This document shows positions 995-62,305 of a stretch of DNA of 64,000 nt, in pieces. The stretch is taken from assembly GCA_963575745.1 (NCBI GenBank), contig CAUYUJ010000658.1:529001-593000 (forward strand), written 5' to 3'. Source of the stretch: Prorocentrum cordatum. Lineage: Eukaryota; Sar; Dinophyceae; Prorocentrales; Prorocentraceae. The notes under the pieces are model-generated. The model was not told where the DNA came from. It did not search any database and saw only the letters and a list, made by a program, of their open reading frames with translations. Position 1 is the first letter of the stretch; every line of letters begins with the position of its first letter. A program made the position numbers and the translations under genes.

Positions 995-3040
995 AGGTGG
1001 GACAAATGTATTCGGACGGGAGGGCCCGAGGGACCGTTGGCCTTCAATATCATCGTTGCTGCTATGTGGGGCTCCACGATTCGAGAATGGGACGTACTAG
1101 GACTAGGTTATCGTATTGAGTATGTGACTGGCTCGACTAGCTGTGTTTCGATTATTAATCATTTCCTTTGGGCTGACAACTGTTATGTATTGGCTCGGAG
1201 TCGAGAGGAACTCACACGCATGTTACACGGTCTAACTACACAGTTACATGATTATGGAATGAGATGGAAGGAATCCAGCCTATTGTATATGGTGTTCGGG
1301 GTCGAGCCGCCGCGAGATGTGGAAGGGGAAATACTTCACACTGCTGATCTTGCTCTCTCGGTGGGGTCGGAGGCGTCTGGAGTGTATCGATTTAGAAGGA
1401 CGACGGAGATGGAGGTGCTGGGGGCTTATATTTGTTCTGAACTACATGTGAATGAACATCATGATTTGGACGCTCGTATTGACTGTGCTCGCAGGGCCTT
1501 CTGGGGGCAGGCGACCTTCTTCCGCTCCACGGCCATCCCGTTGAAAGATAAATATGAGAGGTATGCTCAGAGAGTTCAGAGTATTGTGCTCTACGCGGCG
1601 GAAGGATGCACGGTCGATTCAAGTTCATTGAGCGCCCTTCATATCTTTGAGGGCAAGTGCCTGTCTGTAATGTCTCGCTGTATACGGAGGGAGGGGGAAA
1701 GTTACCAGGAATGGAATACGAGGAGGTATGAACGTGCGAGACAAAAAATTCATGATGCTCACTTCGTGGGCATTGTACAGAAGTTTCTCAGAGTGCATTG
1801 GATGTGGGCAATTGACATCCAGGACTTTGCACACAGGCTGATCACAGATCGGGGGGAGCTGGAGGCGAACTCGATGAGAGCTTGGAGAGATTCTCGTTTC
1901 TCATGTCTGGCGTTTGGCCGACTGTGGGATAGAATGAGGACGGATTCAAGTGAGGCTCTCAGATGTTGGGGAAACTGGAAGGAGGCCAGCTCTATGAAAA
2001 GGCATCGGGGGGGACAGGAGAGCGTCGGACTCCGTCCGTGGTATTATTCATTGGAATCGTTTTACGGTTTATCCTGGTGGGAGTTCTTTGCTGGAAGCTT
2101 TGAGCATTTCATGGATTTCGCTGCTAATGTTTGTTCTAGTACTATGTTGAAGTACTTCCAAAAGAAGTGTAAAGGGTTGGCGTCCTCAGGGGTGCCTGTA
2201 TTCTTGAACTTGGATGAGGATGGAGGGGTTCATATCGGTCAGGATCGGGAGGATACACCAGCATATAGGGATCGCCTCAGCAAACGTATTGCGTTGCATA
2301 ATATGCGTTGTACACAGTGGGACCTCGATACAGATGGGATACCACTGGACATCCAAGGGGACTCACTGCTTGTTATTAACTGGCTCTGCGGGAAATGGAA
2401 AGTATTAGCTCAGGTATATCAGAAAAGGGTGGATACTCTGATTAATAAGTTGGACGAAATGCAGGAAACTTACTTGGTGAGGCCTCCAGAGGCCGGCCGT
2501 GACTTCTTCTCTCATTCGTTTCGGGAATGGAACCAGAAAGCTGACTTACTGACCCATCAGGCCCGTCAGGGCCATGTGTACGCCGATTTCGTTTACCTCA
2601 ACGACTTTGAATCTCAGTGTTATATTCCTTGCCTTATCAAAGCCGGCTTTGATGGGGGAGTTTGTAGCCGCGGAAGTGCCTGTGGTGCATGGATACAGAT
2701 CGGTCTGCGAAACAAGTATATCTTCTCGCGGACCGACATCATTTTCAAGGATGTGTATCTTGCGGGTTGGTGTCTACCACCGAGCGCCACTGTTACAGAT
2801 GCGGAGCTATCGGCGGCGGAGCGCATATGCGAGGTGCTCCCACAGGTTGTGCAGACCTTCTTTGATCATTCGCAGTGTTTTGACACACATTGTTTCTTCT
2901 TTTCTGTGTCTTGTCTATTCCTGCAGCTTCGCTGTTCACTGACTTCCTCGATTTTCTGTGTGTTCTTTGCGTTTGATTGTGTCATTGCGGCAGGTGATTC
3001 TCTTTATTCCTTCAGCTTCGCTGTGTGGTATAAGAGCTGA
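995..3040 (+). pseudogene. RT (partial) - RNase H fragment of Ret-A ORF2
   Basis: The frame is open for about 680 codons from the truncation point, so the copy is recent. It begins at RT motif B (CIRTGGPEGPLAFN, from about 1006), followed by motif C FLWADN near 1171, where the usual YxDD has lost its second Asp. The thumb-like region RIDCARRAF...FEGKCL follows. The RNase H motifs come in the order GDSLLVINW (about 2359), REWNQKADLLTHQAR (about 2523), GFDGGV (about 2647) and TVTDAELSAAE (about 2788), i.e. permuted. RT motif A and the endonuclease are missing, so no active enzyme can be made. The frame upstream of 995 (open from 926) is satellite read by chance. The last 50 or so residues read into the 3' UTR and are probably not conserved. 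It is most like Ret-B and Ret-D. Confidence 0.85.
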
Positions 3041-7216: not shown

Positions 7217-10200
7217 GAAGGTTCTTGATTACATTTTTGTTCCCAGGACGTGGGTGATCGATGAGATGACGGTCGAAACGATGATGAGTAATGGGGGGAA
7301 GACAAATCGTAGTCGTCTCAGCGACCATGGCCTGCTTCAGGGGACTTTTAGTGACGCAGGCGCTGAGCTGGTCAAACGTAGTATCCCGACGGCAGCTCGT
7401 GAAAAGAGTTTGGTGGGTTATAAGACGGTGAATTGGGGGGACCTCAATATGGCGCGAAAGGAAATCGATCGGGTCTTGGGAGATGCCAATACTACTTGTT
7501 CTCCAGGGGACCTTGTGTCGACCACTATTCGGGCCTGTACTGAGCAGGAGGATATCAAATTCACGACTGCCACCACGGGACGGGGACTACCGCCAATTAG
7601 GCCTGCAGGGCTCACGGCCTGCCAGGAGATTTTGCGACGGAAGCCTCTGCCAGCGTCAGTGGACGTGCCCAGCTTGCGCAGACGTGCCAACGGACTGCGG
7701 AGGGAGTATCGTGCGGCGTTGGCCGCGTGGACCTCTCCTGCCTCCAGGCGCAAAGAGCGTCATGGTATCAAGCACCTCATTGTGCAGGGACGGATATCTG
7801 AGGACAGGGAGGAGTGGGTGGAGGAGATCAGAGCACATACCAGACAGAAGTATACTTCGGAGGAGGTCAGAGGACGGGATATGGCGATGTTGGAGGAGTT
7901 GAGGAGGGATGCACAACAGAACCTATGTGACGGGTACTGCACTGAGGGACTGACAATGGCGGTGGTATGCCAGGCACGGTCACGTCTCAAGTCCAAGCGT
8001 GCCACCGGCCCCGACAGGCTGCCTTGTGAAATCCTCAAGGCATTGCCGTGGGCGACTTTGCGTGGCGTTGCTCGGATGTTTGATGAGATATTTCGCTTGG
8101 CACGGCAGTATCCGCAGGATTGGAGGAAAATTTTGATCGCCTTCATGCCCAAGCTGCCGAGCTTGACATCGCTGACAGATGCACGGTACCTCTGTCTGCA
8201 AAACAGTCTCAGCCGTTGGTATTCTGCTTGTGTGGTGATCTTGGTCGAACAATTTGTGTCTCGGGCTGGCCTCATGGGACCCCTGGGCATCTACGGCTTC
8301 CAGGAGGGACGTAAGACGGTGGAAATTGTGGGGGCCCTCAAGGCTCTGGCTCAACATGGGGACATCTGGGGAAAGGATCAGACGGTCCATATCGCTAACG
8401 CCGATATCAAACAAGCGTTCGACCACTGCAGCCTTCTAAACGCCAAGCGAGCTATGTGCCATGCCAATATTCCTGCCTATCTCCAGTATGCTTTGCTATC
8501 ACCGCTGGTTTGCACTACGGGGTCGTTAGTTGTCGAGGGTATGGCCATTCACGACATCAACTGGGACGTCTGCATACGGACGGGCGGCCCTGAGGGGCCT
8601 CTTCTCTTTAATCTTATCATATGTGCCATGTGGGGACCTATATTTCGGGATTGGGACAGTCGAGGAGTGGGGTATGTGCTGGAGGGCGTCTGTGGTGAGT
8701 ATGAGCGACGGACAATAGTGAACCACTTTGTGTGGGCGGACAACTGCTACCTTGTCTCTGCCTCCTCAACTGTGTTGGCTCAGATGATGCACGATCTAAC
8801 ACTACCACTACATGACTGGGGGATGAGATGGAAGGATAGCAGCCTGTTGTACATGACATGTGGGGAAAATGCTAAAGTGGACGGTGACGGACATATACTT
8901 ACCAGCGAGGATTTGTGTATACCTGCGTGCTCGAGATATCAGGGCTTTAGACTTCGACGTGTTTGCAGAATGAAAGTATTGGGGCATGAGATTTTCTCCA
9001 CCTACTTAGTGCCCGCTCATCCTGATGTTGAATATCGCATCAAGGAGGCTCGAGCTTGTTTCATTGGACAGTCGAATTTCTTTCGTGACAGAGCGGTAGC
9101 TGTTCGTGACAAGTTTTGCCGTTATCAAGACAAGGTGCAGAGTATGGCGTTGTATTGTCTAGAGACATGTACTGCGGATACTTCCTCGCTACACATGCTC
9201 AATGCCTTCGAGGGATGGTGTTTGTGCCGTATGTTTCGACGGCCGAGGAGAGAGGAGGAGACTATGGCGGACTGGAACCGACGACGGTACCACGAGGCCA
9301 GGGAGCAATTTCGATCTTATGGATTTGCGAGTTTGGTGCAGCGATTTTTTCGTATGGTGTGGAACTCCGCTAAGGATGCTGCTGATTTCATTTCTATGTT
9401 GTGTACTGCTTCTCATGAGGAAATATCTTCGACGCAACGTACGTGGAGAGATCACCACATGACTACGGTTGCGTATGGCCCACTGTGGGACAGACTCAGG
9501 ACGGATGCGTCTGAGTGCTTGCGGGGTATGTTTCACTTCCAAGAGGCTTCGCAGCTAAAAAGGAGACATGTTAGTTCAGGTCGAGCTGTCGGCCAGAGAT
9601 GCTGGCTATTTTCTTTCTGCGAATTCTACGGACTCAAATGGTGGGAGTCCTTTGTGCCGACAGATGCCGCGTATGTTCAGTTCTGCGAGCACATGTGTAC
9701 ACGGACGATGCTGAGTTATTTCCAGCAAAGAAAAGGGTACGGTACAACAGGTGGGGCCCCGCAGGAGGTACTTACTATCACACAAAACGACCTGCACACC
9801 TATGGGGCCCAAGAGGGCACTGCGGCGTTCAACGACAAACTGGCCAAACGTATTGCGTTACAAATTATGAAGGGGGTTGAGTACGACCTCGACTCATTTG
9901 GGATCCCTGTGTATATTTCTGGGGACAGTCTTCTGGTGGTGTCTTGGCTGCAGGGTGTCTGGAGGGTGCTTAATCGTACTTATCAGGATAGGATCAACAG
10001 AATGATAAACCAACTCGACAACATGTGTCAAAGATATGGAATTAGGCCTGCCTGTCATGGGAGGGAAATTGTTGACCACACATATAGGGAATGGAACACG
10101 CGTGCAGATGTACTCACTCATACGGCCCGCGTCGGGCCACCAGTGATTCGAGATAGGATAGGGCTTCACGCCCCTCAGTTACAACAGGTGTTTCGCGTTT

Positions 10201-10457
10201 GTGCCATCAGAGCTGGATTCGATGGTGGTGTCTCTTGCGACGGCGTGGGAGTCGGGTGCTGGATAGATGTTGGACGGGTATCGAGACTCTCAAGGCAGCC
10301 ACTCAGCCATGAGATCATTTGGACGGAGGTGTACAGTGCGGCACTCTCGATTGATCCAACTTCAACAGTGACTGATGCCGAGGTCTCGGCCGTTGAGCAT
10401 ACGATTATGATCTTGCCGCGGGTTGTACAAGCGTATTTCGGACAGGATATGATGTGA
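7209..10457 (+). CDS. Ret-B ORF2, main part: end of endonuclease, RT, permuted RNase H
   Basis: This frame carries the end of the endonuclease (LDYIF, SDH), then a linker, then RT: motif 1 ATGPDRLPCEIL (about 7999), motif A ADIKQAFDHC (about 8401; first Asp catalytic), motif B IRTGGPEGPLLFN (about 8575), and motif C FVWADNCY (about 8727), where Asn replaces the second Asp. The thumb region follows (FEGWCL). The RNase H motifs are GDSLLVVSW (about 9922), REWNTRADVLTHTAR (about 10087), GFDGGVSCDG (about 10213) and TVTDAEVSAVE (about 10366), in permuted order. A computed start at GTG 7254 is not biological; the frame is the continuation of the endonuclease after an indel. The RT-RNase H part is intact (more than 1000 codons). 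Confidence 0.88.
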   Translation, partial: TCKKVLDYIFVPRTWVIDEMTVETMMSNGGKTNRSRLSDHGLLQGTFSDAGAELVKRSIPTAAREKSLVGYKTVNWGDLNMARKEIDRVLGDANTTCSPGDLVSTTIRACTEQEDIKFTTATTGRGLPPIRPAGLTACQEILRRKPLPASVDVPSLRRRANGLRREYRAALAAWTSPASRRKERHGIKHLIVQGRISEDREEWVEEIRAHTRQKYTSEEVRGRDMAMLEELRRDAQQNLCDGYCTEGLTMAVVCQARSRLKSKRATGPDRLPCEILKALPWATLRGVARMFDEIFRLARQYPQDWRKILIAFMPKLPSLTSLTDARYLCLQNSLSRWYSACVVILVEQFVSRAGLMGPLGIYGFQEGRKTVEIVGALKALAQHGDIWGKDQTVHIANADIKQAFDHCSLLNAKRAMCHANIPAYLQYALLSPLVCTTGSLVVEGMAIHDINWDVCIRTGGPEGPLLFNLIICAMWGPIFRDWDSRGVGYVLEGVCGEYERRTIVNHFVWADNCYLVSASSTVLAQMMHDLTLPLHDWGMRWKDSSLLYMTCGENAKVDGDGHILTSEDLCIPACSRYQGFRLRRVCRMKVLGHEIFSTYLVPAHPDVEYRIKEARACFIGQSNFFRDRAVAVRDKFCRYQDKVQSMALYCLETCTADTSSLHMLNAFEGWCLCRMFRRPRREEETMADWNRRRYHEAREQFRSYGFASLVQRFFRMVWNSAKDAADFISMLCTASHEEISSTQRTWRDHHMTTVAYGPLWDRLRTDASECLRGMFHFQEASQLKRRHVSSGRAVGQRCWLFSFCEFYGLKWWESFVPTDAAYVQFCEHMCTRTMLSYFQQRKGYGTTGGAPQEVLTITQNDLHTYGAQEGTAAFNDKLAKRIALQIMKGVEYDLDSFGIPVYISGDSLLVVSWLQGVWRVLNRTYQDRINRMINQLDNMCQRYGIRPACHGREIVDHTYREWNTRADVLTHTARVGPPVIRDRIGLHAPQLQQVFRVCAIRAGFDGGVSCDGVGVGCWIDVGRVSRLSRQPLSHEIIWTEVYSAALSIDPTSTVTDAEVSAVEHTIMILPRVVQAYFGQDMM

Positions 10458-15513: not shown

Positions 15514-16950
15514 ATTTGTGCACGGGCTGGAGACCCCAGCCTGCCCTATCAATTACGTGAGGCGGTGGTTTTGCCGAGAAAAAGCGAGTGCGACATACTG
15601 GGAGTTAAATTTGTGACGAACCCGAGGGATTTCCATGCAGTGCGGCACCGTATTGATGCAGGCAGGCGGTGTTTCTATGCTGATATTAAATTCTATCGAT
15701 CACGTGCGGTGAGCATGAGGGAAAAATTCAGACGGTATCAGAGCAGAGTTCAACAGATCATATGCCATGGATGTGTGGGGTGGAGCTGTAATGAACATGT
15801 GCTGAACATATTGAGGAGCTTTGAAGGAAGATGTTTGAACACAATGCGGGGATTACATAGAAAAGAGACGGAAACGTGGGAGGAGTTCAGGGATCGCAGT
15901 ACCAACAGATCCAGGGAGATGTTCAAGGAGGGGGGGTTCAAAACGTTGGTGGAGAAAGTTGTGAGGTATAACTTTGAATTCGCCGTGGAGGTATCCCAAT
16001 ATAAGTGCCACATGCCGTCCACTGTGTATAGCAAATCGTGGCAGCAGACGCTGCGCTCCATGTTGCACGTATCGGGGGAGTGGACGGTGCAGAGGGATGA
16101 AATGCTGGCGGCAGTAAGTCGGACGATGTCGAGAGAGGGAACGAGACGGCTCAGAGGCAGACCACGAATCGTGGCGAGCAGCTGGCATGCACCCTTTGAA
16201 AAATGGAGGTCGCTTCTGTGGCACGACACGTGCGTTGTACCGACGGATTGGGAGGAGTTTGTGGAACACATATCACAGATACCCAAAGTGGAGGATATGT
16301 TTGTGAGGAGGAGTAAGGAGAGGAGGATGGGAGGGTTTGCGAAGACACCGACAGATGACGAGTTGGCCCGACGTCTTGCAGTTATTAATGAACAGACTAC
16401 GATATGGGACCCTGGGATGGAAGGTATCGCTGTTGAAATGTGCGGAGACAGTAAAACGGTCGTACAATGGTTGAGGGGAGTCTGGGCCTGTGACAACAGT
16501 GGGTATGCCAAACGGATCGCCAGGATACAAAATATCATGTATGACGTGAGTGAACAACACAACATACGATGCCCGACGTACGGTAGGGATTTCTGGAAAC
16601 ATATCTATAGGGAAGCCAATGCCTATGCTGATGAGCTGACACACCATGCGAGAGAAGGAAACTGTTACAGAATTTACAAGCACGACTATATCAAACAGAA
16701 CAGGACAAACATCGAATACATCAGAGGATGCTGGGATGGTGGTGTGAGCAGTGAGGGTGCTGCAGGAGGTCACTGGATCGAAGTTGCTCCAGAGGATGGC
16801 CCGTGGACACTCGTGAGCTCAGAAGCCTACATGTTTGATGTAGGAGCCACCGTGACGGAGGCAGAATTATCTGCTGCCGAGCGCCTGTGCACAGGTGTGG
16901 AGCACATTGTTAAAGAAATTTCCTCTGCAAAGCGGAGGAGGCGGATTTAA
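15514..16950 (+). pseudogene. Ret-C ORF2 fragment: post-RT region and permuted RNase H
   Basis: About 478 codons remain open. The copy starts after the RT catalytic motifs, in the connecting region (DILGVKF, RRYQSRVQQI, LRSFEGRCLNTM). The RNase H is complete in permuted order: CGDSKTVVQWLRGVW (about 16441), YREANAYADELTHHAR (about 16606), CWDGGVSSEG (about 16729) and TVTEAELSAAERL (about 16852). The part of the open frame before 15514 is satellite. Ends in EISSAKRRRRI, a basic tail absent from Ret-B and Ret-D. It cannot transpose alone since RT and endonuclease are gone. Confidence 0.8.
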
Positions 16951-25684: not shown

Positions 25685-28341
25685 AGGATAGATATATCTT
25701 GAAGGAGAAGTTGGAGGAGCATGTTAAGGGGAAGGTGACATCACAGCGTAAGAGGGAGGAGAACAGCAACTTGATGGAGGAAATCAGGAGGAAGGCGGAG
25801 GAGGAGATCAAGGGTGGCCAGATCATTCGAAGTATTACGATGTCGATATGTTGTGCAGCGAGGGCTCGTCTTCGAACGCGACGGGCAACAGGACCGGATC
25901 GCGTACCTTGTGAAATGCTCAAGCTTCTCCCATGGTGCACAGTTCGGCACATCCAACAGATCTTCGACTCTCTTTTGAGGCTGGCTGTCCAGTACCCTGT
26001 TCGATGGAGGGACATTCTTATTGCATACATGCCTAAACTAAAGGGGATCACGAACTTGGCGGATGCTCGACTCTTGTGCTTACAGAATAGCATAACTCGC
26101 TGGTTCTCGGCGTGCGTAGTTATCCTGGTGGAGCAGCATGTGGAAGAGTCTAAGCTATTTTATCCTCTGGGCCTCTATGGGTTCCGTCAGGGTCACAGCA
26201 CATCCCATATCACGAATAGCCTTACTAACATGTGTATGCACGGGGACAAGTGGGGGAAGCGTGAGTGTCTGTACGTTGCGGACATGGACATATACCAGGC
26301 CTTTGACAACTGCACGATACAGAACGTTCATAAGGGTCTTGAGCATGCACGTGTCCCTGCGTATTTACAGCACGCGTTTCTGGATCCGTTATCGCACAGC
26401 ACGGGCTGCCTCTACTATGACGGGTTGGAGATTGATAACATCCAGTGGGACACCTGTATTAGGACTGGAGGTCCAGAAGGGCCCTTGGGCTTTAACCTCA
26501 TTATTGCTGCCATGTGGGGTGACGTTATTCATAATTGGGACGTTCAGGGCATGGGGTATGCGGTAGATTTCGGTACGGAGCATCGGTCGGTGGTGAATCA
26601 TTTTATCTGGGCAGATAACGTGTACCTCGTCAGTCGTAGCCGTGAGGAGCTTACTCGTATGGTAAGAGACTTGACACTTCCACTTTACAACTTCTCGATG
26701 CGATGGAAACCCACATCGCTGAAGTACATGGTGTGCGGAGCTCCTGCTGTCTTGGATGAGGACGGGAATATCCCGCGTTCGATGGATCTTAAAATACCGA
26801 TCTTCTCAGATGCATGTGACGGGAGAAATGCAGTGCAGCAGATTGATGAGTTATGTTACCGTCGAGTTGTTTCTATGGACGTACTGGGCACGCAGCTGCA
26901 TAGTGAATATAACTGTTCTGTACATCGCGATGTTTCTTTTCGCCTAGACTGTGCTCGTCGCGCATTTTACTCTCAGGCAGGGTATTTCAGGTCGCATTGT
27001 ATTCCTCTCAAGGATAAGCTGCGGAGATACCAGGACAGAGTCCAGAGCCTGGCTCTGTATGGTATGGAGACCACCACTGCAGATTCTTATACTCTCTCGT
27101 TTCTCCATTCCTTCGAAGGGAAATGCCTGAAGATGATGATCTCTTCTCGAAAAGGCCCGACGGAAACGGAGCAAGCCTATCAGCAGAGGAGATATCATGT
27201 CGCACGGGAACGTTTCTTGAAGGCTGGGTACTCCTCTCTTGTCCAGCGTTATCTGATATTGCACTGGAATTTCGCAAAAGACATTGCAAGTTTCGCAAAT
27301 GGCATGATTGTTGAGAAAGCGATTGACTTGAAAGCGGCGGAGAGGACATGGCGCGATTCCCGTATGGCGAGTTTATGTTTTGGACCGTACACTGACCGCA
27401 CTCGTACACTTATGAGCGAGACGATGAGACACTTTGGCAACTGGTCGGAGGCCTCTTCTTACAAACGTCGCTGTCGAGGTACGGAGAGTATTGGACAGAG
27501 ATCATGGCAATATACATTAGCTGAGTTTTTCGGAGATGATTGGTGGATTCATTTCACAGGCTCCCAGCTTGGATTTATGCAGTACGCCACGCACCTTTGT
27601 ACTCATAGCATGCTTCAATGTTTCCAGGAGGTGTCGACGTGCGGACCTGTGAGTTCGCCCGCATATTTGGCGCCCTCCGAGCATGGTGAAATCCAGGTGA
27701 GCACGGATGATAGTCCGATGGCTGCTGAGAAACTTGCAAAGCGCATCGCTCTTCATAATATGAAAGCAACCCGTTGGAACCTGGAGGCCCCTGGAATCCC
27801 TCTGGAGGTGGTGGGTGACTCGCTTCTCGTGGTTAGCTGGGCTACGGGACGGTGGCGGGCAGATAATAGATCATATGCGGATAGAATATCAAAAATTATC
27901 AATACGCTTGATGGGCTTTGTTGCAGCTATAATATACGACCTCCAGCGCCGGGTATGGATCTTATTCGTCATGATTTTCGGGAGTGGAACACTCGTGCCG
28001 ACGTTCTAACACACCAGGCCCGAGAGGGCCAGATTTCTAGTTCAGAATGTAGTCCGTATACACATGATTATGAGACAGAATTTTACGTTGCTGCTGCTAT
28101 TCGGGCTGGTTTCGATGGCGGCGTGTCGTCTGAGGGATGTGGGTGCGGTTGCTGGATAGACATAGGCCTCAAACCTCGGTATTGGGATCGACGGGACCCC
28201 GCTCAGCTGATATGGAAGTCAGTTTTTGAGAGGGCTTGGCTTATTTCTCCGACCACAACTGTTACTGATACAGAACTCAGTGCTTTGGAGTGCATCGTGA
28301 CTGCGCTCCCACAGGCAGTTCTATGGTTATCACAGACTTGA
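25685..28341 (+). pseudogene. Ret-D RT - permuted RNase H fragment (frame intact)
   Basis: About 885 uninterrupted codons; only the 5' part of ORF2 is missing. RT: ATGPDRVPCEMLK (about 25885), motif A MDIYQAFDNC (about 26285), motif B IRTGGPEGPLGFN (about 26459), motif C FIWADNVY (about 26602), with Asn for the second Asp. The RNase H has GDSLLVVSW (about 27814), REWNTRADVLTHQAR (about 27979), GFDGGVSSEGCGCGCW (about 28109) and TVTDTELSALE (about 28258), permuted. The open frame starts a little earlier (25678) in the target duplication. Without a promoter or ATG it is presumably not expressed, but the intact frame shows it is young. Closest to Ret-B and Ret-A. Confidence 0.88.
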
Positions 28342-31120: not shown

Positions 31121-31130
31121 GACCAGGTTG

Positions 31131-36951: not shown

Positions 36952-37473
36952 GACCAGGTTGCTGCTGTCCCTCCTCGGGGATCTCAGCGGTGGCCTGGCC
37001 CGTCGGGGGCCTCCTCAAGCCTGTCTCCTCAGGCTGCCCCTTGGGCGGCCGTGGGCGCGCGTGGGTGCGCGCTGGCCCATAAGTTCGTGTACTTCGTCGG
37101 CTGCAACCTCCTGGACGTGCTGCGCATAGGTCGCTGCATTTGTTCCCTGCTCGTGTTAGCGGGTGAGCCCACACGTGCCGCTGGAGGCGCAAGGCCGCTA
37201 CCTGTTGCACTTGTATCTTTGCTGTTTGCTTGTGATACTCTTGGGAGCCCGGCACTTACCAGTTTTGCTCTGGCAGTTGAGAAGGACACTTTGACCGTTT
37301 TTGTTGCAGCAGATTTCATCACGTACCGACTTTCACCTTCACGGGTTTGGGATAAGTGTCTTGAAGAACTCGAGGACGAACACTATCGTGATCTGGAGGC
37401 TAGTAGGTGCCCTACTTGTCGAGCTTATCGGTATTCTACTTCCAGTTGTGGGCAGTGTGATCTTAAGAGGAAG

Positions 37474-38586
37474 ATGGTTCCGACTTCTGATGATGATATG
37501 GGAACTGAGGGCAACGGAGAGAAGCGACAGAGGAAGCTCCTGGAAGATAGACGTCTTCTTGGTGATGCCGAGGGTGGTGGAGGTGGGGCAGTTAGTGGGA
37601 ATGGAAGTGGTAGTAGTGGAGGAGGAGGAGGTGATGCTGGAGATCTGGCCACTATGCTCCGTGCACAGTTCGATGCCATGCGTGAAGATATGCAGAGGAT
37701 GCTTATGCAGAACTCTGTTGACATCAAAGAGCAGATTCAAACGAGGGTATCAGAGCAGGTTGCCCCTATTGCTTCGTCGGTGCAGGAGATTCGTTCAGCT
37801 CAGGAGGCCCAGGCGAAAGAGATCAAAGCACTTCAGTCTCAGATGAACTCTAGAGATCCCTGGGCAGATTCATCATCTCTGGGAGGTGCGTCTACTCGTG
37901 ATTCTCGGACTGCTGACTTCCAGAGACCCTTTGTACCACATGTTCCGACTTGGATCCAGGTGAGCGGCTTCGCGCAAGAGGACCCCCGAAAGGTTGAAAC
38001 TCGAGATAAGGCCAAGATCCAGGTCACCACGGTTAGGAACATGATAGGTAAGTTGTACACACTATCGCAAGCACGGGAGAGTGACGTTACTAAGATCTTC
38101 GACAGAGGTAGGACGGACGGGGATATCGCTTCCAATCGATTTGGTGTGACCAAGTTTCGCATATACTTCATGCCAGGGACTTCGAAAGAGACGGTCTGGG
38201 AAGTACGCAACGAGTGGGCCTCAGCCTGGTCCAATTCGTGCCCTGATCTGGTCGGTTGTCAGAATAGTTTTGGACCATACAAAGACCGACACCTCGGTTG
38301 GTTTGTCCAACCGGCACCACAGGACCGACGTAGAGTGGGGGAGACTCGCAAGGCGACTGCGATCTTTCATAAGCTCAAGACTGTTGCCACTGCTCTCATC
38401 ACTTTTGAGCCTGAAGGGCCTGCAAAGGCTTGGGCATACCTGCAGAAGGATAGTCAGAGTGATAAAGTGTGTGTAGGTACGTGGACGGATACCGTGGGAT
38501 GGAAGTTCGTGTCCGAGCGGGTCCAGCACATCGATCCAGATCTGGACTGCAAGACTTGGGAGAGGCAGGTGAATAGCAGCTCGTGA
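37474..38586 (+). CDS. Ret-F ORF1 protein (glycine/serine-rich linker, coiled coil, C-terminal domain)
   Basis: 370 residues from the first in-frame ATG (37474); the frame is open without ATG through the whole 512-nt leader. It begins KMVPTSDDDMGTEG with an acidic and basic stretch, a Gly/Ser linker (about 37573-37635), then a coiled-coil region (MLRAQFDAMREDMQRMLMQ to IKALQSQM, about 37654-37845). It ends with a domain sharing FGVTKFRIYFMPGT and a following W and V with Ret-B ORF1. Upstream of the ATG are CPTCRAY and CGQC (about 37411-37460), a possible CxxC pair if a non-AUG start is used. Role inferred from LINE ORF1 proteins: RNA binding in the RNP. Stops at TGA 38584-38586, in frame with ORF2. 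Confidence 0.75.
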   Translation: MVPTSDDDMGTEGNGEKRQRKLLEDRRLLGDAEGGGGGAVSGNGSGSSGGGGGDAGDLATMLRAQFDAMREDMQRMLMQNSVDIKEQIQTRVSEQVAPIASSVQEIRSAQEAQAKEIKALQSQMNSRDPWADSSSLGGASTRDSRTADFQRPFVPHVPTWIQVSGFAQEDPRKVETRDKAKIQVTTVRNMIGKLYTLSQARESDVTKIFDRGRTDGDIASNRFGVTKFRIYFMPGTSKETVWEVRNEWASAWSNSCPDLVGCQNSFGPYKDRHLGWFVQPAPQDRRRVGETRKATAIFHKLKTVATALITFEPEGPAKAWAYLQKDSQSDKVCVGTWTDTVGWKFVSERVQHIDPDLDCKTWERQVNSSS

Positions 38587-41500
38587 CGGTGCCCAGCTTC
38601 TGTTGGAGGTTGGAACGTTCGGAGGTTGGGAAGATACACCTCCGAGTGCATGAATCACATTGCCGAATTAAAGATTTCCATCGTCGGGGTCCAAGAGAGC
38701 CAGTTCTTACACGACTTGGATCTTGCAGATGCGGGTTGGGATATACATCGCTCGGCAGATGAAGGGGAGAACGTGGGGAGACGGGCTGCCATCTTGTGCC
38801 GAGGTGTATGGAGACATCTGCTTATCGATGTTGTGTGTGGTCGCCGCTGGGTCATTGCAATCTTTCGCAAGCTCATCTTCGTTTCTGTCTATCTCCCTCA
38901 TAAGGAGTCTGAGCGGGGTGCACAGGGTGAAGCACGCCGTTCTCCTGAAGGGTTTCTTGCTAGTTTCAAGCTCTATACGGACGTGTTATCGGATCTTGTT
39001 GCACATGTCTCTGCGGCCAAAAAGCGATTTCACATTGAGGAGGTTGTTATCTCGGCTGACGCCAACGTGGAGGTTTTCCCGCACCACAGGATCAATGGGG
39101 TGGAGGTTACGGGGGAGGCGGTGAATGGGCCTATACGTAAGAGGGGGAGGTCTAGTGGAGGTGACGAAAGTAGAGCCAACAGGATGAGGGAGATGTGCTC
39201 GGGGGCCTTTCTGACGACCATGGGGGCCCTCAAGTTGCAGCTAGCCAACACTTTTGGGACTCGTCAGCCTACTTGGAGACACAATTCGAGCACATACGAG
39301 CACGTCTATGATTATCTTGCGGTCCCAGCTTCTTGGATGACTCCAGAGGTGACTTGTTCCTGGGTTGTGCCGTCCCAGGTCCCACGGTCGGAGGCGACGG
39401 AAAGGACGTTTAGCGATCGCAAGCTCTTGTGTGCCGATATGCCCGCCCAGCATGCTCAGTTGAGGTATCGACGTCGGCCTCAGCTCAAGACCTGGAAGCT
39501 TCAGCCAGGGTTCGAGCTCCAGCAGACAGCCGGCTTGGAGAGAGCGATTTGCCAGCCCGAGCTCGTGAATCAGATCCACACGGATGTAGGTTTTGAGGTC
39601 ATGACACAGAGTATACTTGAGGGTGCCAGTGAGACTTTGGATATCTCCCGTTCCCGTGGTCAGCCTGTTTCAGACTATCCCAGATATTCGGAGGAGGATT
39701 TACTGATAAAGGAGGAGTTCTTTAAGGTCAGGAAGAGGTGGAGGGTGGCACGATATGGCGGGGCTAACGTGGGACAGGAGGAGTACGAGGGAGTCCAGGA
39801 GGAGTACAAGGGGACAGCAAGGAGGTGGCGTCGAGTACGTAAGCGCCATGATCGTGCATGTGAGCTTTACCGTATTCGTGATGGTGTCCGTCGTAGGCCT
39901 GTTATTACGCACATGTATGTTGACGGGGTCCTCACGCGTGACCAGGAGAAGTGGATTGAGGGCCTTCGGCGGCATGGGCTCCTGAGGTACTCCTGCGATC
40001 CCCACCGACAGGACACCAACGCGTGCTTGGATGAGCTTAAGAACCAGTGTAAGGCCCTGCGAGACTCTGGAGAGCCCCACCGCAACCCGATCAACATGGG
40101 TCTCTTGCTGGAGGCACGGTCTAGACTCAGGGAAGGACGGGCAACAGGTGCAGACGGGGTGACGTCATCGGTGCTCAAAGCATTGCCATGGGAAGCCCTC
40201 CGACACATACTTACCTTATTCCGTTTGCTGTACGATCAGAAACATGTTTCACCGAAGTCCTGGAGAGAGATCTTGGTATGCTTGATGCCTAAGAATCCCA
40301 AGGCTCGTGATTTTGAAGAAACGCGGGCCCTCTCACTTCTTTCTCATTTTGGTAAGTGGTATAGCAGTTGTCTATGTGTACTTCTAGAGCACCGCGTTCG
40401 GCAGGCTGCACCGCCAGGTTGCAACTTATATGGCTTTATTGCGGGGCACAAATGTTATGAGGTCACGGCCCCCCTCAAACGTCTTGCTCAACACGGCGTT
40501 GTGTGGGGGAAGGAGGAGAGTCTTTATCTTGCAAGTGCTGACATTGAAAAGGCGTTTGATAATTTCACGGTGAGATGTGCAGCAGAGGCGCTTTTATTCC
40601 ATCATGTCCATCCTGCCCTTGTGTATGCTGTCTTTGAGAGTTATGCTTGTAATACGGCAGAGATCAGCTTCCAACAGTGTTCTACGACCATCTCGTGGGA
40701 TACTTGCATACGTACAGGCTCCTTGGAGGCGCCTTTGCTGTTTGTTGCCCAGACACTTCGTATGCTTGCACCAGTGACGGCAGGTTGGAGGCAGTCTGGA
40801 TACGGCGTCAGGCTCACTGATGAGGCATCCAATCTCTTGGTCAACCACTGGCTGTGGGCAGACAATATTTTGCTGGCAGCAGCTTCCAGGCGAGAACTGA
40901 CTCATATGCTCGAGGACTTGACTGGGGTCCTCCACCGCTTCGGTTTCAACTGGAAAGCATCTTCGATGGAGTTCTTGGCTTGTGGCGTTCAAGGTCCATT
41001 GCAGGATATCCGCCTGCCTGTACCGGGGCTCCTGCCTGCTGAGATGGGTAGGAAGCGTTCTCGTGGGGCTTCCCAGAGCGCCGCAGGCCCTTCGGAGGAG
41101 ATGATAGTGAGGCAGGTGGAGAGGATGGAGGTTCTCGGCACGCTATTGGATGTACGATTTCAGGATCATGACGACATTAAGCACCGACTGGAGAAGGCAC
41201 GGAGGGTCTTCATGAGTGAGATTTCTTTTTACTCGTCGCCCGTGGTTCCGCTTCGTTGTAAGTTTCAGCGTTATGATAGCAGGGTCAGAAGTTGCTTTCT
41301 GTACGGCTTGGAGGGTACGACTCTGGATTCGAGTAGTATCCAACAGATACATGCAGCTGAAGGCAACTTCTTGTCCACCATGAGACGTCTCAAAAAGAAG
41401 ATCACGGAGTCCTGGGGAGAGTACTGGGGCAGGAGGATTAAGGGTGGCCGTCGCTTATTGAAGTGGGCCCGTAAGCCTTCGATGGTCCAGCTCGCCCTTC

Positions 41501-42855
41501 ATCGCCAGTGGCTCTTCGCCAAACATGTTGTGAGCACAATCCATGAGGAACATAGTCGGGTGGATGAGGACGCACTCAGTCAGGGCATTCTTTATCATGA
41601 GCCACGAGATCCTGATATTTTTGGTGGTTCGCAGCGTTTCTTGGAGTTATCGGTTCCCTCGCCTACCCCGAATGCCAGACAGCTCAACAGTTCGTGTAGG
41701 AGAAAGGCACAGAGCGCATCTTCCTTGGAAAGTAGATCAGTTCGCAGACGTATATCGGAGAACACGGCATATGAGCATCACGATTCACAACATGTACATG
41801 AGCCTGTTCGTAAGCGGGTACGCCATACCTATGCACGGGAGGAGGAAGGAGGATTGCCCACTGCCAGTATGCAGAGCGCCTTGACGATGATGCACGCGTC
41901 GGGGGAGTGGACTGAGCAGCGTGACGTACATGTTAGAGCTCTCCCTGGGGGCCGAAGGTTTACTAGAGCCTGTCGTCATCGAGTCTTGACGGGACTCAGG
42001 CCTTGGTTCGAGGTCTTCGAGCACACGCGCGGGGTTCATTGGGATCGCACGATGGTCTGGAATGAAACTGGCTGGCGTTCTTTCCTGGTGGGTACCCTGG
42101 CCGCCCTGGACTTGGATGATCTTCTCGAGTTCTGCCTTCTTCGGGATCCCTTCACGGGTGAGTTCAAGCAGGAGGAGGAGGGGGAGGAGAAGTCTGAGGA
42201 GCAGCAACGACGGGAAAATGAACGGGTGGCGAAACGACTGGCCGCGATAAATGATGATGAAACCACTTGGCGTGGGGAAGGGGGTGGATATGGCTTGGAG
42301 CTCCGTGGGGATAGCCAGTGTGTTGTGCGCTGGCTTAATGGAAGATATCGCTGTCATAATGAAGTATACCGCCGCACGATCAAGGGTATGCAGAACCGCC
42401 TCCACAGAATGAGTGAGGACCATCATCTTGTCACGGCTGAAGTGGGAAGGGATATGTGGAAATGGGTGTATAGGGAGGGCAACGATGAGGCGGACTATGA
42501 GACACATCTTGCACGTGAGGGTAAAGTAACTTCTGATGTTCGTTGGAATCATAACACTCTTTATCATATTAGATCGGGTCATTATATTGTTCGTGCACTT
42601 AGAGGAGCTTTTGACGGTGGGCGGTGTGAGCGTGGCACCTCGTGTGGCTGGGTTATTGATGTTTATCTTGTTCCCTCTCTTCCTCCTCACCAGCTTCCCC
42701 CTGGACTTGTGCAGGGTGGATGGCACCCTGGAGTTGGCCGCAGAGGTTTCATGATCCCTAGCCATTGCACGATCACACAGGCTGAGTTGGCAGCTGCACA
42801 TTCTCTTCTCAATGGCATTGCCGAGATGTGTATACACGTACAACTTGGCAGGTGA
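38587..42855 (+). CDS. Ret-F ORF2: endonuclease - RT - permuted RNase H
   Basis: 1422 codons open after the TGA, in the same frame as ORF1. Endonuclease: GGWNVRRLG (catalytic Asn 38614-38616), GVQES (38686-38700), VSVYLP, SADANVE (about 39052), YDYLAVP (about 39307) and FSDRKLL (about 39409), where SDR replaces the usual SDH. RT: TGADGVTSSVLK (about 40145), motif A SADIEKAFD (40534-40560), motif B IRTGSLEAPLLF (about 40708), motif C WLWADN (40849-40866). RNase H, permuted: GDSQCVVRW (about 42307), REGNDEADYETHLAR (about 42472), GAFDGG (about 42604) and TQAELAAAHSLL (about 42775). The first ATG (38650) lies after the catalytic Asn, so upstream translation is needed for a complete endonuclease. 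Confidence 0.9.
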   Translation, partial: RCPASVGGWNVRRLGRYTSECMNHIAELKISIVGVQESQFLHDLDLADAGWDIHRSADEGENVGRRAAILCRGVWRHLLIDVVCGRRWVIAIFRKLIFVSVYLPHKESERGAQGEARRSPEGFLASFKLYTDVLSDLVAHVSAAKKRFHIEEVVISADANVEVFPHHRINGVEVTGEAVNGPIRKRGRSSGGDESRANRMREMCSGAFLTTMGALKLQLANTFGTRQPTWRHNSSTYEHVYDYLAVPASWMTPEVTCSWVVPSQVPRSEATERTFSDRKLLCADMPAQHAQLRYRRRPQLKTWKLQPGFELQQTAGLERAICQPELVNQIHTDVGFEVMTQSILEGASETLDISRSRGQPVSDYPRYSEEDLLIKEEFFKVRKRWRVARYGGANVGQEEYEGVQEEYKGTARRWRRVRKRHDRACELYRIRDGVRRRPVITHMYVDGVLTRDQEKWIEGLRRHGLLRYSCDPHRQDTNACLDELKNQCKALRDSGEPHRNPINMGLLLEARSRLREGRATGADGVTSSVLKALPWEALRHILTLFRLLYDQKHVSPKSWREILVCLMPKNPKARDFEETRALSLLSHFGKWYSSCLCVLLEHRVRQAAPPGCNLYGFIAGHKCYEVTAPLKRLAQHGVVWGKEESLYLASADIEKAFDNFTVRCAAEALLFHHVHPALVYAVFESYACNTAEISFQQCSTTISWDTCIRTGSLEAPLLFVAQTLRMLAPVTAGWRQSGYGVRLTDEASNLLVNHWLWADNILLAAASRRELTHMLEDLTGVLHRFGFNWKASSMEFLACGVQGPLQDIRLPVPGLLPAEMGRKRSRGASQSAAGPSEEMIVRQVERMEVLGTLLDVRFQDHDDIKHRLEKARRVFMSEISFYSSPVVPLRCKFQRYDSRVRSCFLYGLEGTTLDSSSIQQIHAAEGNFLSTMRRLKKKITESWGEYWGRRIKGGRRLLKWARKPSMVQLALHRQWLFAKHVVSTIHEEHSRVDEDALSQGILYHEPRDPDIFGGSQRFLELSVPSPTPNARQLNSSCRRKAQSASSLESRSVRRRISENTAYEHHDSQHVHEPVRKRVRHTYAREEEGGLPTASMQSALTMMHASGEWTEQRDVHVRALPGGRRFTRACRHRVLTGLRPWFEVFEHTRGVHWDRTMVWNETGWRSFLVGTLAALDLDDLLEFCLLRDPFTGEFKQEEEGEEKSEEQQRRENERVAKRLAAINDDETTWRGEGGGYGLELRGDSQCVVRWLNGRYRCHNEVYRRTIKGMQNRLHRMSEDHHLVTAEVGRDMWKWVYREGNDEADYETHLAREGKVTSDVRWNHNTLYHIRSGHYIVRALRGAFDGGRCERGTSCGWVIDVYLVPSLPPHQLPPGLVQGGWHPGVGRRGFMIPSHCTITQAELAAAHSLLNGIAEMCIHVQLGR

Positions 42856-44068: not shown

Positions 44069-47000
44069 TGGAGGGCAGGTAAAGACAAAACAACTCAAGT
44101 TATACAACGAATTCAAATGCATGGGAGAAGTGTTGCTTTGGTGGGTCTTCAAGAGTGTCTGCACCTAACCCAGAGTATCATTTCAAAAGAGGGATGGATA
44201 TTATTGCGGAGTAAAGACAAGCTAGCGGGTTTCATGTTCCGAGCGAGTGTTCCGATTAGATACACTGACAACCAGTCAAATCGTGTTGTGCTCATCGTAG
44301 TCGGCAAAATCATCGTTGTCTCGGCCTACTTTCCACATGAGGGGAGAAGAAATGCGGTGGCGGAGTTCAATGCCTTAGCCAACTTGGTGAGAGCGAAGAT
44401 CCAGGCGGCACGTGTGCAGTTTGAGCAAGAGGGGGGGAAAGACTTTGAGGTGGCCATCTTGACAGATGCGAATGTTGAGTTGCCTGCACATGTACGGGGT
44501 GAAGGAGGGAAGGAGGTCACGGGAGGGTGTGCGCACGGACTTGCAGGTGGGACAGGCGGTGGGAGGCTTCGAAACGGAGAGGACGAGGAGGAAACGTTTG
44601 ATGCGCGAAGCCCTGGTCGACCTGATTGTTGAGCTGGATCTTGTGGCGACGAACGCGTTTCAGGAGCGGCTCCCGACACATTTCACTCGTGCACATAAGT
44701 CACCGCAGGTGCTCGATTACATCTTTGCTCCAGCGTTGTGGGGAGAGGCTAGAGTTCAGTGGCAGGACGTCAGGGACACAGGCAATGAGACGTCGGATCA
44801 TGCGGCGGTGTTGCTGGAGTTGCCCGTCTCGACCCGCCCGGCCCCGAGAGCAAAAACGAGGCGACCCATGCGCCCCAAATGGGAGCCAGAGACCGAGCCA
44901 GGCCGCAGATTGTTCTCAGCCCAGAACTACGACAGGTTAGTCACGGAGCGGGGGGAAGGGGACTACGTGCCACCAGGTAAGTTGTCCGAGGTGATGCTAG
45001 GTGCGGCGGAGGGGATCCCGACGAAGCAGATGGTTCGAGAGGTGCCTCAGAAGTCAGATAAACACAAAGCCCTGGAAAGAGCCAAAAGGTTGAAACAATG
45101 GGAGGACGAGGAGGGGAGGAAAGAGATAAACCGACAGTTGAGAAAAGAAAAGAATGCCCTAAAGTGTGCCATGCTTAAGTATGCCAGTATATCAAAGAAG
45201 AAGACCAGGACCGAGATTATCACTAAGTTAAACATCAATGGGAGGATGGAGGAGGATCAAACAAAATGGAGTTCGGCACTGTATGAGCATACCAAGGGGA
45301 AGTTTGCGAATGAGCAGATCAGGAGGGAGACGGAGGAGGTGATGGAGGAGCTCAGGAACCAGGCCCAGACGGACACCATCAGGTTGATTTTCGACTTTAG
45401 TGCGATGATGGATGCCAGATCCAGACTGTCGGTGGGCAAGCAGACGGGGGAGGGCGGGATCACGGTTAGCATGCTGAAGACTCTAGGCTTCGGGGACCTT
45501 CAGGAGATATTTAAGACGTTTTCGGCGATCTATGAGGGGCGGGAGTCGACGCCAGAGGACTGGCGTATGATAGTACTCACGCTCATCCCCAAGAGTGAGA
45601 AGATTACGAGTTTGGAGGATACTAGAGCGATTGCAGTTTCTTCATGCTTAACTAAGTGGTATTCGCTTTCCCTGGTTGTGGTCCTGGAGAGGTTCCTGGC
45701 CAAAAACTTGGACCCCGAGATGAATGTATATGGGTTTATGTCTGGGAGAAAAACGACGGAGGTCACCTCGATGATTAAACATATCGGTCAACATGCTTCG
45801 ATTTGGGGGAAGGGCCAGAGCTTTTGGCTCTGCAGTTGTGATATTCTGAAAGCGTACGTTCACCTTCGACTTACGACATGTGTGAAAGCAATGAGAAAGC
45901 TTGGGGTTCCTTCTTCTTTTCAGTATGCTATCTTGGAGCCGATGCTGAGAAACACGGCGACGGCAAATTTCCAGAGTACCCAGTGCGAAACAGTGCCGTG
46001 GGACACCTGTGTTAGGACGGGACAGGTTGAGAGCCCCATCTTATTTGTGCTAGTCACGATTGCGATGATTGGCCCGACAGTGCACCCGTGGAAAGAGAGG
46101 GGCGGCTACAATATCGAGAGACAGAGAGCGTGCGCATATTCGATCGAGGCTAAAGTTGGAGCCATCTCTCGCACTATCGAGGGCTCCCAGGAGATGGAGG
46201 TGCACCAGACTCTCAGTCATGCGATATGGGCGGATAACTTTTTCATCTTCGCCCAAGGCGATAGACAGGAGGGAAAGAAGATGGTTTCCACGATGATGAA
46301 GGAACTTACGATATCCATACGTGAATGGGGTTTCGAATGGAAACCCAGTTCGGTTGAGTTAGCGACGTTTTGGATAGATTTTGATGCAGATCCGTTGGAA
46401 GTTCAAATCCCGACCAAATCTTTTGAACCAGTGACGAAAAGAGAGAGAACAGCGATCAAATCTTTTGAATCAGCTGCGAGAGTAACTTCATTGACAGGGC
46501 CAACACCACTTCCTCATTCGTATATGCCAGCGCCAACATCACTTCTTCATTCACGTTTGCCAGCACCGACATCACTTCTTCATTCGACATATCCGACAGC
46601 TACGCTGTGCAAGATATCCGACAGCTACGCTGAACAGACATATCAGACAGCTACGCTGAACAGAAATATGCCAGTTCCCCATTCGCCTTTGACAGCGCCA
46701 ACGACATTTCCTTATGCACATTTGCCAACGCCAATGCCAGCTGTTCATACTCGTGTGTCATCGTCGTCGTTGATAAGAGTGCCTGTTGTTCTTTCGCATT
46801 TGCCAGCGCCAACGCCATCTCTTCATACTCGTGTGTCTTCGCCGCCGTCGATAAGAGTGCCTGTTGTCTCAGCTTGTAGTGTGCAGCCTGTTGCCTCAGC
46901 TTGCAGTGTGCACGAATTGGCTGAGAATGCGGGTGCTGTTCAAACGATGACCGATCTGGCCTTGTCTCAGAATGCGGGTGCGGGCTCGTCCACCCATTTG

Positions 47001-48480
47001 GTGGAGACACTCTTCGTTCCGCGAGTGCAGGAGATTGCCTTCTTGGGTGTTCGGCTACACACTCGAATGAGGACCCACTTGGACGTGCAGTATCGGATTC
47101 AGAAAGCTCAGCATGCGTTCTGTCAAGACATCAGTTTGTATCGGTGTCGGTCGGTGCCCTGGACGGTGACATGGGATAAGTATGTGAGCAAAGTACAGGG
47201 CACTTTCTTGTACAGTGTTGAAGGATCGAGCATCGACAAATCGGCATTGCAAGATATTCATAAGTTTGAGGGACGTTGCTTGATAAAAATAGTTGGTGTA
47301 CGGAAAAAGGTCAATGAAACATGGGTCAGCTTCAATGTCAGAGCTTATAACTTTGCCAGGGAGAGGTTTCGGGAAAAAACACGCCAGCCTTGTAGAGTTG
47401 TACTTGCAGAAACAATGGGAGTGGAATAAGGATTGTTGCTCTTTCTTGAAGACGGCGGACATTGCGACAGGTGCTGCTTGCAGTCAACTGAATTCTGGAG
47501 CTTGGCGTGAATCAACAAGTGTGTGCCGCAGTTTTATGACAGCAAGGTTGGCGATGTTCCATGGTATGAAACGTTGGACGGAGAGACGGGACTTGTACAA
47601 TGACGCGATCAGGGTGTTGAGTAAAAGCTGGAAGAACCCAGAAGTGTCAGAAAAACGTCGGAGGATTGATTGCCAGACAATAGGTCAGACATCGTGATGA
47701 GTATTGGAAACACTTGAGACATGATTAGGGGACGCGGAAAGCATGGATTGAGCATATCAAACAAAGGACTGGACTTGCATTCGATCGACTTTTTAAGCAG
47801 GAAGAAGAAAAGCGTGTGGGACCAAACACTTGGGAGGAGGAGGAGGCACCAACACGGGCGGCGAATACAAAGCAGGCCAAGAGGCTCGCACATGTTTTCG
47901 CGACGATGACGGACTGGTGGGAGTACGAACAGGGGCTTGCGCGAGGTTTGCCAGTGGAGATCCATGGAGATAACATGGCCACGATCAAGTGGTTAAACGG
48001 GGAGTGGAAGATCCAAAACCGAATATATGCCAGACAGATTGCCGAACTACAAAATGAGTTTCACGAGTTGCATGAAGAGTTTAACTTTGTCGGAGCCAGG
48101 GTCGGAGGAGACATGGGTAATCATGTCTATCGGGAGGGAAATCAGAGGGCGGATGCATTAACTCACATTGCACGCGTCAGAGATATAGAATATGATAGGG
48201 CACACGAGCTACAGGGGTATGACCTTTATGCCCTTCGGGACGCTTTCGACGGTGGAGTCGATAAGGATAAAGCAGGAGCAGGCTGGTGGCTGGAGGGATT
48301 GATCAAAGCATCGGCATCTCATTCAATATATGGGAGCTTTGCCTTTCTGGATAGACCACAATGGGTGCTGATCAAATCGAAGGCGTTTGGCCTTCCCCCC
48401 AATATTCTGCCATGAACACTGAATTCGAAGCTTTATCGAGCCTCTGCGGGGCCATCTTTAGTGTAACCCGTAACTTCGCC
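44069..48480 (+). pseudogene. Ret-G ORF2 remnants: endonuclease - RT - permuted RNase H, several frameshifts
   Basis: At least four frame changes. Endonuclease: ALVGLQE (about 44136), VVSAYFPHEG, LTDANVE (about 44459), then a shift near 44540-44570 to VLDYIFAP (about 44709) and TSDHAAVLLEL (about 44791). RT in that frame to 47429: SCDILKAYVHL (motif A; the second Asp position lost), CVRTGQVESPILF (about 46009), AIWADNFF (about 46220). A shift at AAAAAA (about 47372) leads to SLVELYLQKQWEW, stopping at 47697. The frame returns for GDNMATIKWLNGEW (about 47959), YREGNQRADALTHIAR (about 48127) and AFDGGVD (about 48241) up to 48415. The last motif NTEFEALSSL (about 48415) is in yet another frame. 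A low-complexity insert (about 46480-46990) separates RT from the thumb region. Confidence 0.82.
46480..46990 (+). repeat. Degenerate coding repeat inside Ret-G ORF2
   Basis: About 500 bp in the frame of RT but without counterpart in Ret-B or Ret-D at this place. It is rich in Pro, Thr, Ser, Leu and His with repeats such as LPAPTSLLHS and RVSSSSLIRVPVV. It includes three CAGCTACGCTG mini-hairpins (46597-46607, 46622-46632, 46648-46658). In Ret-F the same place holds a shorter linker (PVPGLLPAEMGRKRSRG). It is probably a disordered, expanding linker between RT and the following region. Confidence 0.65.
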
Positions 48481-61722: not shown

Positions 61723-62305
61723 GTAGGCTATATGGGGCCAGTATCGGCTGTCTCGGGGCCACCATAGGCTGTCTCGGGGCCATCATAGGCTGTCTTGGGG
61801 CCGTCATAGGCTGTCTTGGGGCCGTCTTGGGGCCATAATAGGCTGTCTCGGGGCCATCATAGGCTGTCTTGGGGCCATCATAGGCTGTCTTGGGGCCATC
61901 ATAGGCTGTCTTGGGGCCATCATAGGCTGTCTTGGGGCCATCATAGGCTGTCTTGGGGCCGCCATAGGCTGTCTCGGGGCCATCATAGGCTGTCTTGGGG
62001 CCATCATAGGCTGTCTCGGGGCCATCATAGGCTGTCTTGGGGCCATCATAGGCTTTCTTGGGGCCGTATTGGGGCCATCATAGGCTGTCTTGGGGCCATC
62101 ATAGGCTGTTTTGGGGCCATCATAGGCTGTATTGGGGCCATCATAGGCTGTCTTGGGGCCATCATAGGCTGTCTCGGGGCCATCATAGGCTGTCTTGGGG
62201 CCATCATAGGCTGTCTTGGGGCCATCATAGGCTGTCTCGGGGCCATCATAGGTTGTCTTGGGGCCATCATAGGCTGTCTCGGGGCCATCATAGGCCTTCT
62301 TGGGG
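61723..62305. repeat. 21-bp minisatellite, about 27 units
   Basis: Tandem units with the core AGGCTGTCTTGGGGCC followed by ATCAT or a variant; T/C alternate in CTTGGGG/CTCGGGG. Because 21 is a multiple of three, several frames are open on both strands and give seven-residue repeats (GAIIGCL, GHHRLSW, APRQPMM, AYDGPKT). Two places carry a shortened spacing (GGGGCCGTCTTGGGGCC near 61815 and GGGGCCGTATTGGGGCC near 62060). I see no reason to prefer one reading frame as a real protein. Confidence 0.85.

Follow-up and report, generated by a model that had tools for sequence, protein, structure and literature searches.

A putative circularly permuted archaea-like RNase H domain in LINEs of the dinoflagellate Prorocentrum cordatum

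The C-terminal domain of a family of long interspersed nuclear elements (LINEs) from the dinoflagellate Prorocentrum cordatum is very probably an archaea-like RNase HI that has been circularly permuted between helix αA and strand β4. The stretch of DNA analysed, referred to as the window, is 64 kb of contig CAUYUJ010000658.1 (positions 529,001 to 593,000) and holds six copies of one LINE type, A, B, C, D, F and G. The permutation is supported by the order of the motifs, the completeness of the catalytic residues, the rotation of the sequence profile and two structure predictions. In copy F the domain (42220–42855, forward strand) comprises the final 211 codons and the stop of a 1422-codon frame (38587–42855). 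The single open frame is intact in five copies (A, B, C, D and F) and frameshifted in copy G.

From the N- to the C-terminus the domain contains the motifs GDS, R-E-x-N-x-x-A-D, [F/W]DGG and T-x-T-x-[A/T]-E-[L/V] (Table 1). Copy G is degraded, with GDN for GDS and the last motif reduced to TEFEAL in another frame. The canonical arrangement β1-β2-β3-αA-β4-αB-β5-αE occurs in none of the six copies and in neither of the two structural models. A preliminary description of this DNA had reported the motifs in the order third, fourth, first, second, and this order is indeed present in all six copies, in G through frameshifts. The motif strings quoted there were however a blend of copies, as copy F has REGN rather than REWN and continues as TITQAELAAAH. 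The accompanying statement that the protein ends shortly after the Glu helix holds for B, C, D and F, the frames of which close soon after it, but not for A, where the frame continues to 3040, or for the broken copy G. Over the domain the identity to copy D is 47% for A, 45% for B, 39% for C, 35% for G and 32% for F, which bears out the divergence claimed earlier and indicates that the copies are not recent duplicates. Because six diverged copies share the motif order, an assembly artefact was rejected as its source. The view that the architecture is inherited and does not reflect a rearranged copy is supported.

The catalytic set D-E-D-R-D is complete in all five intact copies. Of the 24 columns that do not vary in a six-row alignment, four hold the GDS Asp, the Arg, the Asp of the AD pair and the DGG Asp; in the five intact copies the C-terminal helix likewise keeps its Glu throughout. 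The proportion of non-synonymous differences (pN, 0.36–0.56) is below that of synonymous differences (pS) in both halves of the domain for all 10 pairs of intact copies, with pS (0.69–0.90) near saturation. A second, canonical set of Asp and Glu motifs upstream of GDS, which would speak against a permutation, was looked for and none was found. In alignment A4, from column 691 onwards, 18 columns are acidic in at least four of five copies; nine of these lie upstream of the GDS Asp and none of the nine has a D-G context. The string DGG occurs upstream of GDS in copy A only (NLDEDGGVHIG). A tblastn search of the window with the intact domains of all five copies as queries, at E ≤ 1e-3, yielded a single match per copy and no extra half-domain. 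For alignments A2, A3 and A5, as well as the two structure predictions, the one-frame fragment of copy G was kept.

The first half of the domain (β4-αE) is, by profile comparison, clearly homologous to archaea-like RNase HI. The hhalign tests and the rotated alignment used five of the six copies (G being left out), and the hhalign tests were restricted to columns present in copy D. Columns 43–121 of the domain in its native order align to positions 62–129 of a template built from 80 RVT_3-type, i.e. archaea-like, RNase HI sequences from genomes (all 80 GTDB loci), with a probability of 96.8% and an E value of 2.5e-10 for this single comparison. RVT_3-type sequences were taken as the yardstick because the first half matches E. 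coli-type RNase HI weakly (probability 3.4%, E 0.013); the latter set combined the 79 of 80 IMG/VR RNase HI loci with a usable frame and E. coli, giving 62 unique sequences. Against Pfam RVT_3 one of the five intact copies passes the cut-off of 21.6 bits (C, 30.5 bits), F is below it (15.4 bits) and A, B and D give no row. When C, D and F were queried against NCBIfam, RNAseHI_Thmprot ranked top in F (24.6 bits) and second in C, far under its cut-off of 140, and D had no match. The Arg of the YRE/FRE motif corresponds to the diagnostic Arg that, according to the accessible parts of two papers, sets archaea-like enzymes apart from other RNases H (PMC4640811, PMC5348765).

AlphaFold models of the C-terminal domain of copies D and C (predicted template modelling scores 0.80 and 0.77, respectively) share the order β4-αB-αD-β5-αE-β1-β2-β3-αA, so that both the expected number of elements and the permuted order are predicted. 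The topology and the half-by-half matches suggest that the four acids converge in space. In the copy C model the second half gives a low-ranking match to β1-αA of foamy virus RNase H, a protein of canonical order from another kind of element (PMC3443672, accessible part). Against viral models Foldseek gave nothing at E ≤ 0.001; the best 50 matches, without ranges, include the RNases H of Pithovirus, foamy virus and Dasosvirus. A search of solved structures with copy F returned three matches, all at chance level. The match to 3u3g changes from E 0.0091 with the native profile to 0.00059 with the rotated one, a small gain in which the Glu is out of register. Influenza haemagglutinin also appeared in the rotated-profile structure search and was taken as a chance match.

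The second half (β1-αA) is the less certain part of the domain. When this half alone was aligned to the full canonical template, column shuffles scored as well in 2 of 100 cases globally and 6 of 100 locally, and against the N-terminal halves of the two RNase H sets they did so in 34 and 31 of 250. In the first of these sets the segment was misplaced by the aligner; in the E. coli-type set the Asp and the Glu were each paired with their counterpart. No Pfam RNase H match is found in the second half of any of the five intact copies, and with HMMER profiles of both RNase H types this half alone never scores positive (0/5). On sequence alone the second half is a weak candidate for RNase H. These results would fit a domain in which RNase H is confined to the first half, as a truncated remnant, and the DGG…AEL segment is an unrelated small domain with a chance resemblance to the motifs. 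Such a remnant is nevertheless very unlikely, given that the only two acids of the second half invariant in all five copies lie in the DGG and T-x-T-x-x-E contexts, that its predicted β-β-β-α arrangement matches β1-αA of the foamy virus enzyme, and that four frames end soon after αA.

The rotated alignments also speak against a remnant. Moving the second half in front of the first and removing the insert between strands 2 and 3 raises the global score from 62.5 (first half alone) to 69.1, a value attained by 1 of 100 second-half shuffles, and brings the two DGG motifs into register, with the C-terminal helix Glu opposite that of AEY. With the insert retained the global score is 63.3, likewise attained by 1 of 100 shuffles. 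The local scores do not separate from those of shuffles (19/100 and 12/100), and rotation brings no clear gain in Pfam, where A and F go up, C goes down and B and D give nothing. The domain was further cut at every fourth column, omitting the lead helix and the insert. Globally, the native order scores 64.8, cuts 12–64 inside the first half 33–51 and cuts inside the second half 60–68, and the best scores, 69–75, come at cuts 80–108 between αE and DGG, which is where a circular permutation predicts them. Locally, the scan is flat at about 68.5 for cuts 80 to 144. The scan and the predicted order of elements agree in placing the new termini between the Glu helix and the GDS strand, as had been suggested from the motifs.

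Upstream of GDS the five intact copies share a lead helix, [DE]-x-[L/V]-[A/S]-[K/R]-R-[I/L]-A, at a constant 30 residues before the GDS Asp. One of the nine upstream acidic columns sits in it (A-E-K-L-A in copy D), with an acid in all five. This helix bears on how a permutation could have arisen: a canonical RNase H may have been duplicated in tandem and have lost its outer halves, leaving the lead helix as a leftover αA. The conserved acid would suit this origin, as would the RVT_3 match of copy C, which begins upstream of GDS (35–150 to profile positions 19–123) and to which the lead helix contributes 2.7 bits. In copy F, however, the gain is 0.2 bits and copy D has no RVT_3 row, and the resemblance to a canonical αA is no better than chance, with equal or better scores for 99 of 100 shuffles globally and 53 of 100 locally. 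The identification as αA was rejected on these figures and the duplication appears unlikely; it concerns the origin of the permutation, is compatible with it and leaves the fold unchanged.

In the permuted arrangement the chain would enter at β4 with the GDS Asp and proceed through αB-αD-β5-αE, which carries the Arg and an Asp. The αE–β1 linker would connect the original C-terminus with the original N-terminus, after which the chain would pass through β1 (Asp), β2 and β3 and end at αA (Glu). The lead helix and strand 4 would attach the domain to the reverse transcriptase (RT), and the two halves would together form a single RNase H fold with a functional two-metal site. As in other LINE and retroviral enzymes, this site may cut the RNA of the RNA/DNA hybrid that forms during target-primed reverse transcription, and the removal of template RNA after synthesis of the first-strand complementary DNA would free that DNA for second-strand synthesis. 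The linker is variable, at about 20–30 residues, and could instead allow a domain swap in which the β4-αE half of one molecule is complemented by the β1-αA half of a second. This seems very unlikely; the single chains are predicted to fold with the scores given above, which are still compatible with a swap.

The RT of these elements also departs from the usual form. Motif C of LINE RTs is commonly F/Y-A-D-D, and here it is W-A-D-N in all five copies that hold the motif (A, B, D, F and G), which indicates that the family as a whole has Asn in place of the second catalytic Asp. Against Pfam RVT_1 (cut-off 29.6 bits) copies D (35.2), G (33.0) and F (31.8) are above the threshold, and B (27.7) and A (15.7, partial) are below it. 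Copy C lacks that part of the element and gives no row; the 5′ part of its frame is a tandem repeat of an approximately 175-bp type found elsewhere in the window. Pfam gives no endonuclease row for the 1422-residue frame of copy F; its N-terminal region contains SADAN, YDYL and SDRK/SDHG, which by eye we take to be APE-endonuclease-like strings. Copy F was also the one copy in which the start of this frame was considered. An ORF1-like frame (36820–38586) stops at TGA CGG (38584–38589, forward strand) and ORF2 follows without a change of frame. Stops in the context TGA CGG are known to be leaky, so ORF1 and ORF2 may be fused by readthrough.

Other features of the window include a segmental duplication of 5.2 kb (30739–35953 and 50524–55738, 97.7% identical). 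The arrays of the approximately 175-bp repeat (2–5 copies) lie inside units of about 1.2 kb dispersed through the window. A 21-bp tandem array (61733–62305, about 27 units by length) overlaps an open frame of repetitive sequence on the minus strand. A search for the spliced leader gave no match with three or fewer mismatches; its 14-base core had one match, at chance level.

Table 1. Coordinates of the LINE features and repeat arrays in the window
Feature	Position	Strand	Details
ORF2, copy F	38587..42855	+	N-terminal endonuclease-like motifs, RVT_1 (E 1.5e-7), putative C-terminal permuted RNase H
RNase H, copy F	42220..42855	+	Lead helix ERVAKRLA 42220, GDS 42307 (β4), YREGN 42469, NDEAD 42481, FDGG 42610 (β1), TITQAEL 42769 (αA), stop 42853-42855
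RNase H, copy A	2270..2880 (end approximate)	+	GDS 2357, FREWN 2519, NQKAD 2531, FDGG 2648, TVTDAEL 2789
RNase H, copy B	9834..10457	+	GDS 9921, YREWN 10083, NTRAD 10095, FDGG 10218, TVTDAEV 10365
RNase H, copy C	16357..16950	+	GDS 16444, YREAN 16606, NAYAD 16618, WDGG 16732, TVTEAEL 16849
RNase H, copy D	27727..28341	+	GDS 27814, FREWN 27976, NTRAD 27988, FDGG 28111, TVTDTEL 28258
RNase H, copy G (broken frames)	47867..48441 (end approximate)	+	TKQAKRLA 47867, GDN 47966, YREGN 48128, FDGG 48245
Last motif, copy G	48418	+	TEFEAL, different frame from GDN…FDGG
Lead helix	42220-42243; equivalents at 2270, 9834, 16357, 27727	+	Acid in 5/5 intact copies
RT motif C	1169-1180, 8733-8744, 26608-26619, 40855-40866, 46227-46238	+	W-A-D-N
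Repeat arrays of ~175 bp, examples	4267-4715, 11111-11858, 18418-19078, 33598-34332, 54831-55621		

Laboratory-made circular permutants exist for E. coli RNase H. Among the best sequential structural matches to the LINE domain are CinA, TolB-N and ITPase-like folds. The sheet of this SCOP fold, c.51, has the order 21345 with strand 4 antiparallel, and applying the present permutation to the RNase H order 32145 yields this arrangement. The order 32145 with strand 2 antiparallel is that reported for RNase H in the accessible part of PMC1079889. The LINE domain shares with archaea-like RNase HI (RVT_3, PF13456, and RNAseHI_Thmprot; pdb 3u3g, 3aly, 2ehg and 4e19) the D-E-D-R-D set, profile homology over β4-αE and the predicted set of elements, and differs in the order β4-β5-αE-β1-β2-β3-αA, with termini between αA and β4. 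As the permuted order is found in all six copies and both models, the domain is best regarded as a permuted relative of archaea-like RNase HI and not as a plain member.

Retroelements have gained RNase H several times. In the accessible parts of PMC5348765 and PMC4640811 the catalytic residues are given in canonical order. The same parts describe archaea-like RNases H with the residues D-E-D-R/H-D in plant L1 (Ta11), oomycete L1 and Utopia elements, the domain of oomycete Utopia lying upstream of the RT. The present elements resemble these plant and oomycete LINEs in combining an RT of the type lacking long terminal repeats with an Arg-carrying archaea-like RNase H, whereas theirs is, so far as described there, canonical in order; the string ‘permut’ occurs in the available text of neither paper. 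The preprint on CIRPIN, which covers the AlphaFold DB, reports one circularly permuted pair of RNase H-like domains, and its main text, as accessible, identifies neither member of the pair, names no retroelement and lacks the terms ‘RNase H’, ‘retro’ and ‘transcriptase’ (PMC12667903). The literature matches listed, whose coverage excludes Repbase, Dfam and subscription papers, contain no LINE or other retroelement with a permuted RNase H, and the priority of such an enzyme in a retroelement is unproven. No relatives were found in IMG/VR or, with one pattern only, in GTDB genomes, which is consistent with a eukaryotic element.

Taken together, the elements probably represent a LINE clade with a natural, catalytically complete, permuted archaea-like RNase H joined to the RT by strand 4, the first swapped-half RNase H known from a retroelement, and with an ADN RT, so that both enzymes would be rebuilt in comparison with known LINEs. 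If so, the RNase H fold could be re-threaded in evolution with its two-metal site kept while the copies diverged to 32–47% identity, and the point of fusion to the RT would be strand 4 instead of strand 1. The permutation may account for the failure of ordinary profile searches to detect the domain, the Pfam cut-off being passed by one copy in five, and the same arrangement may be hidden in other LINEs for which no RNase H is annotated.
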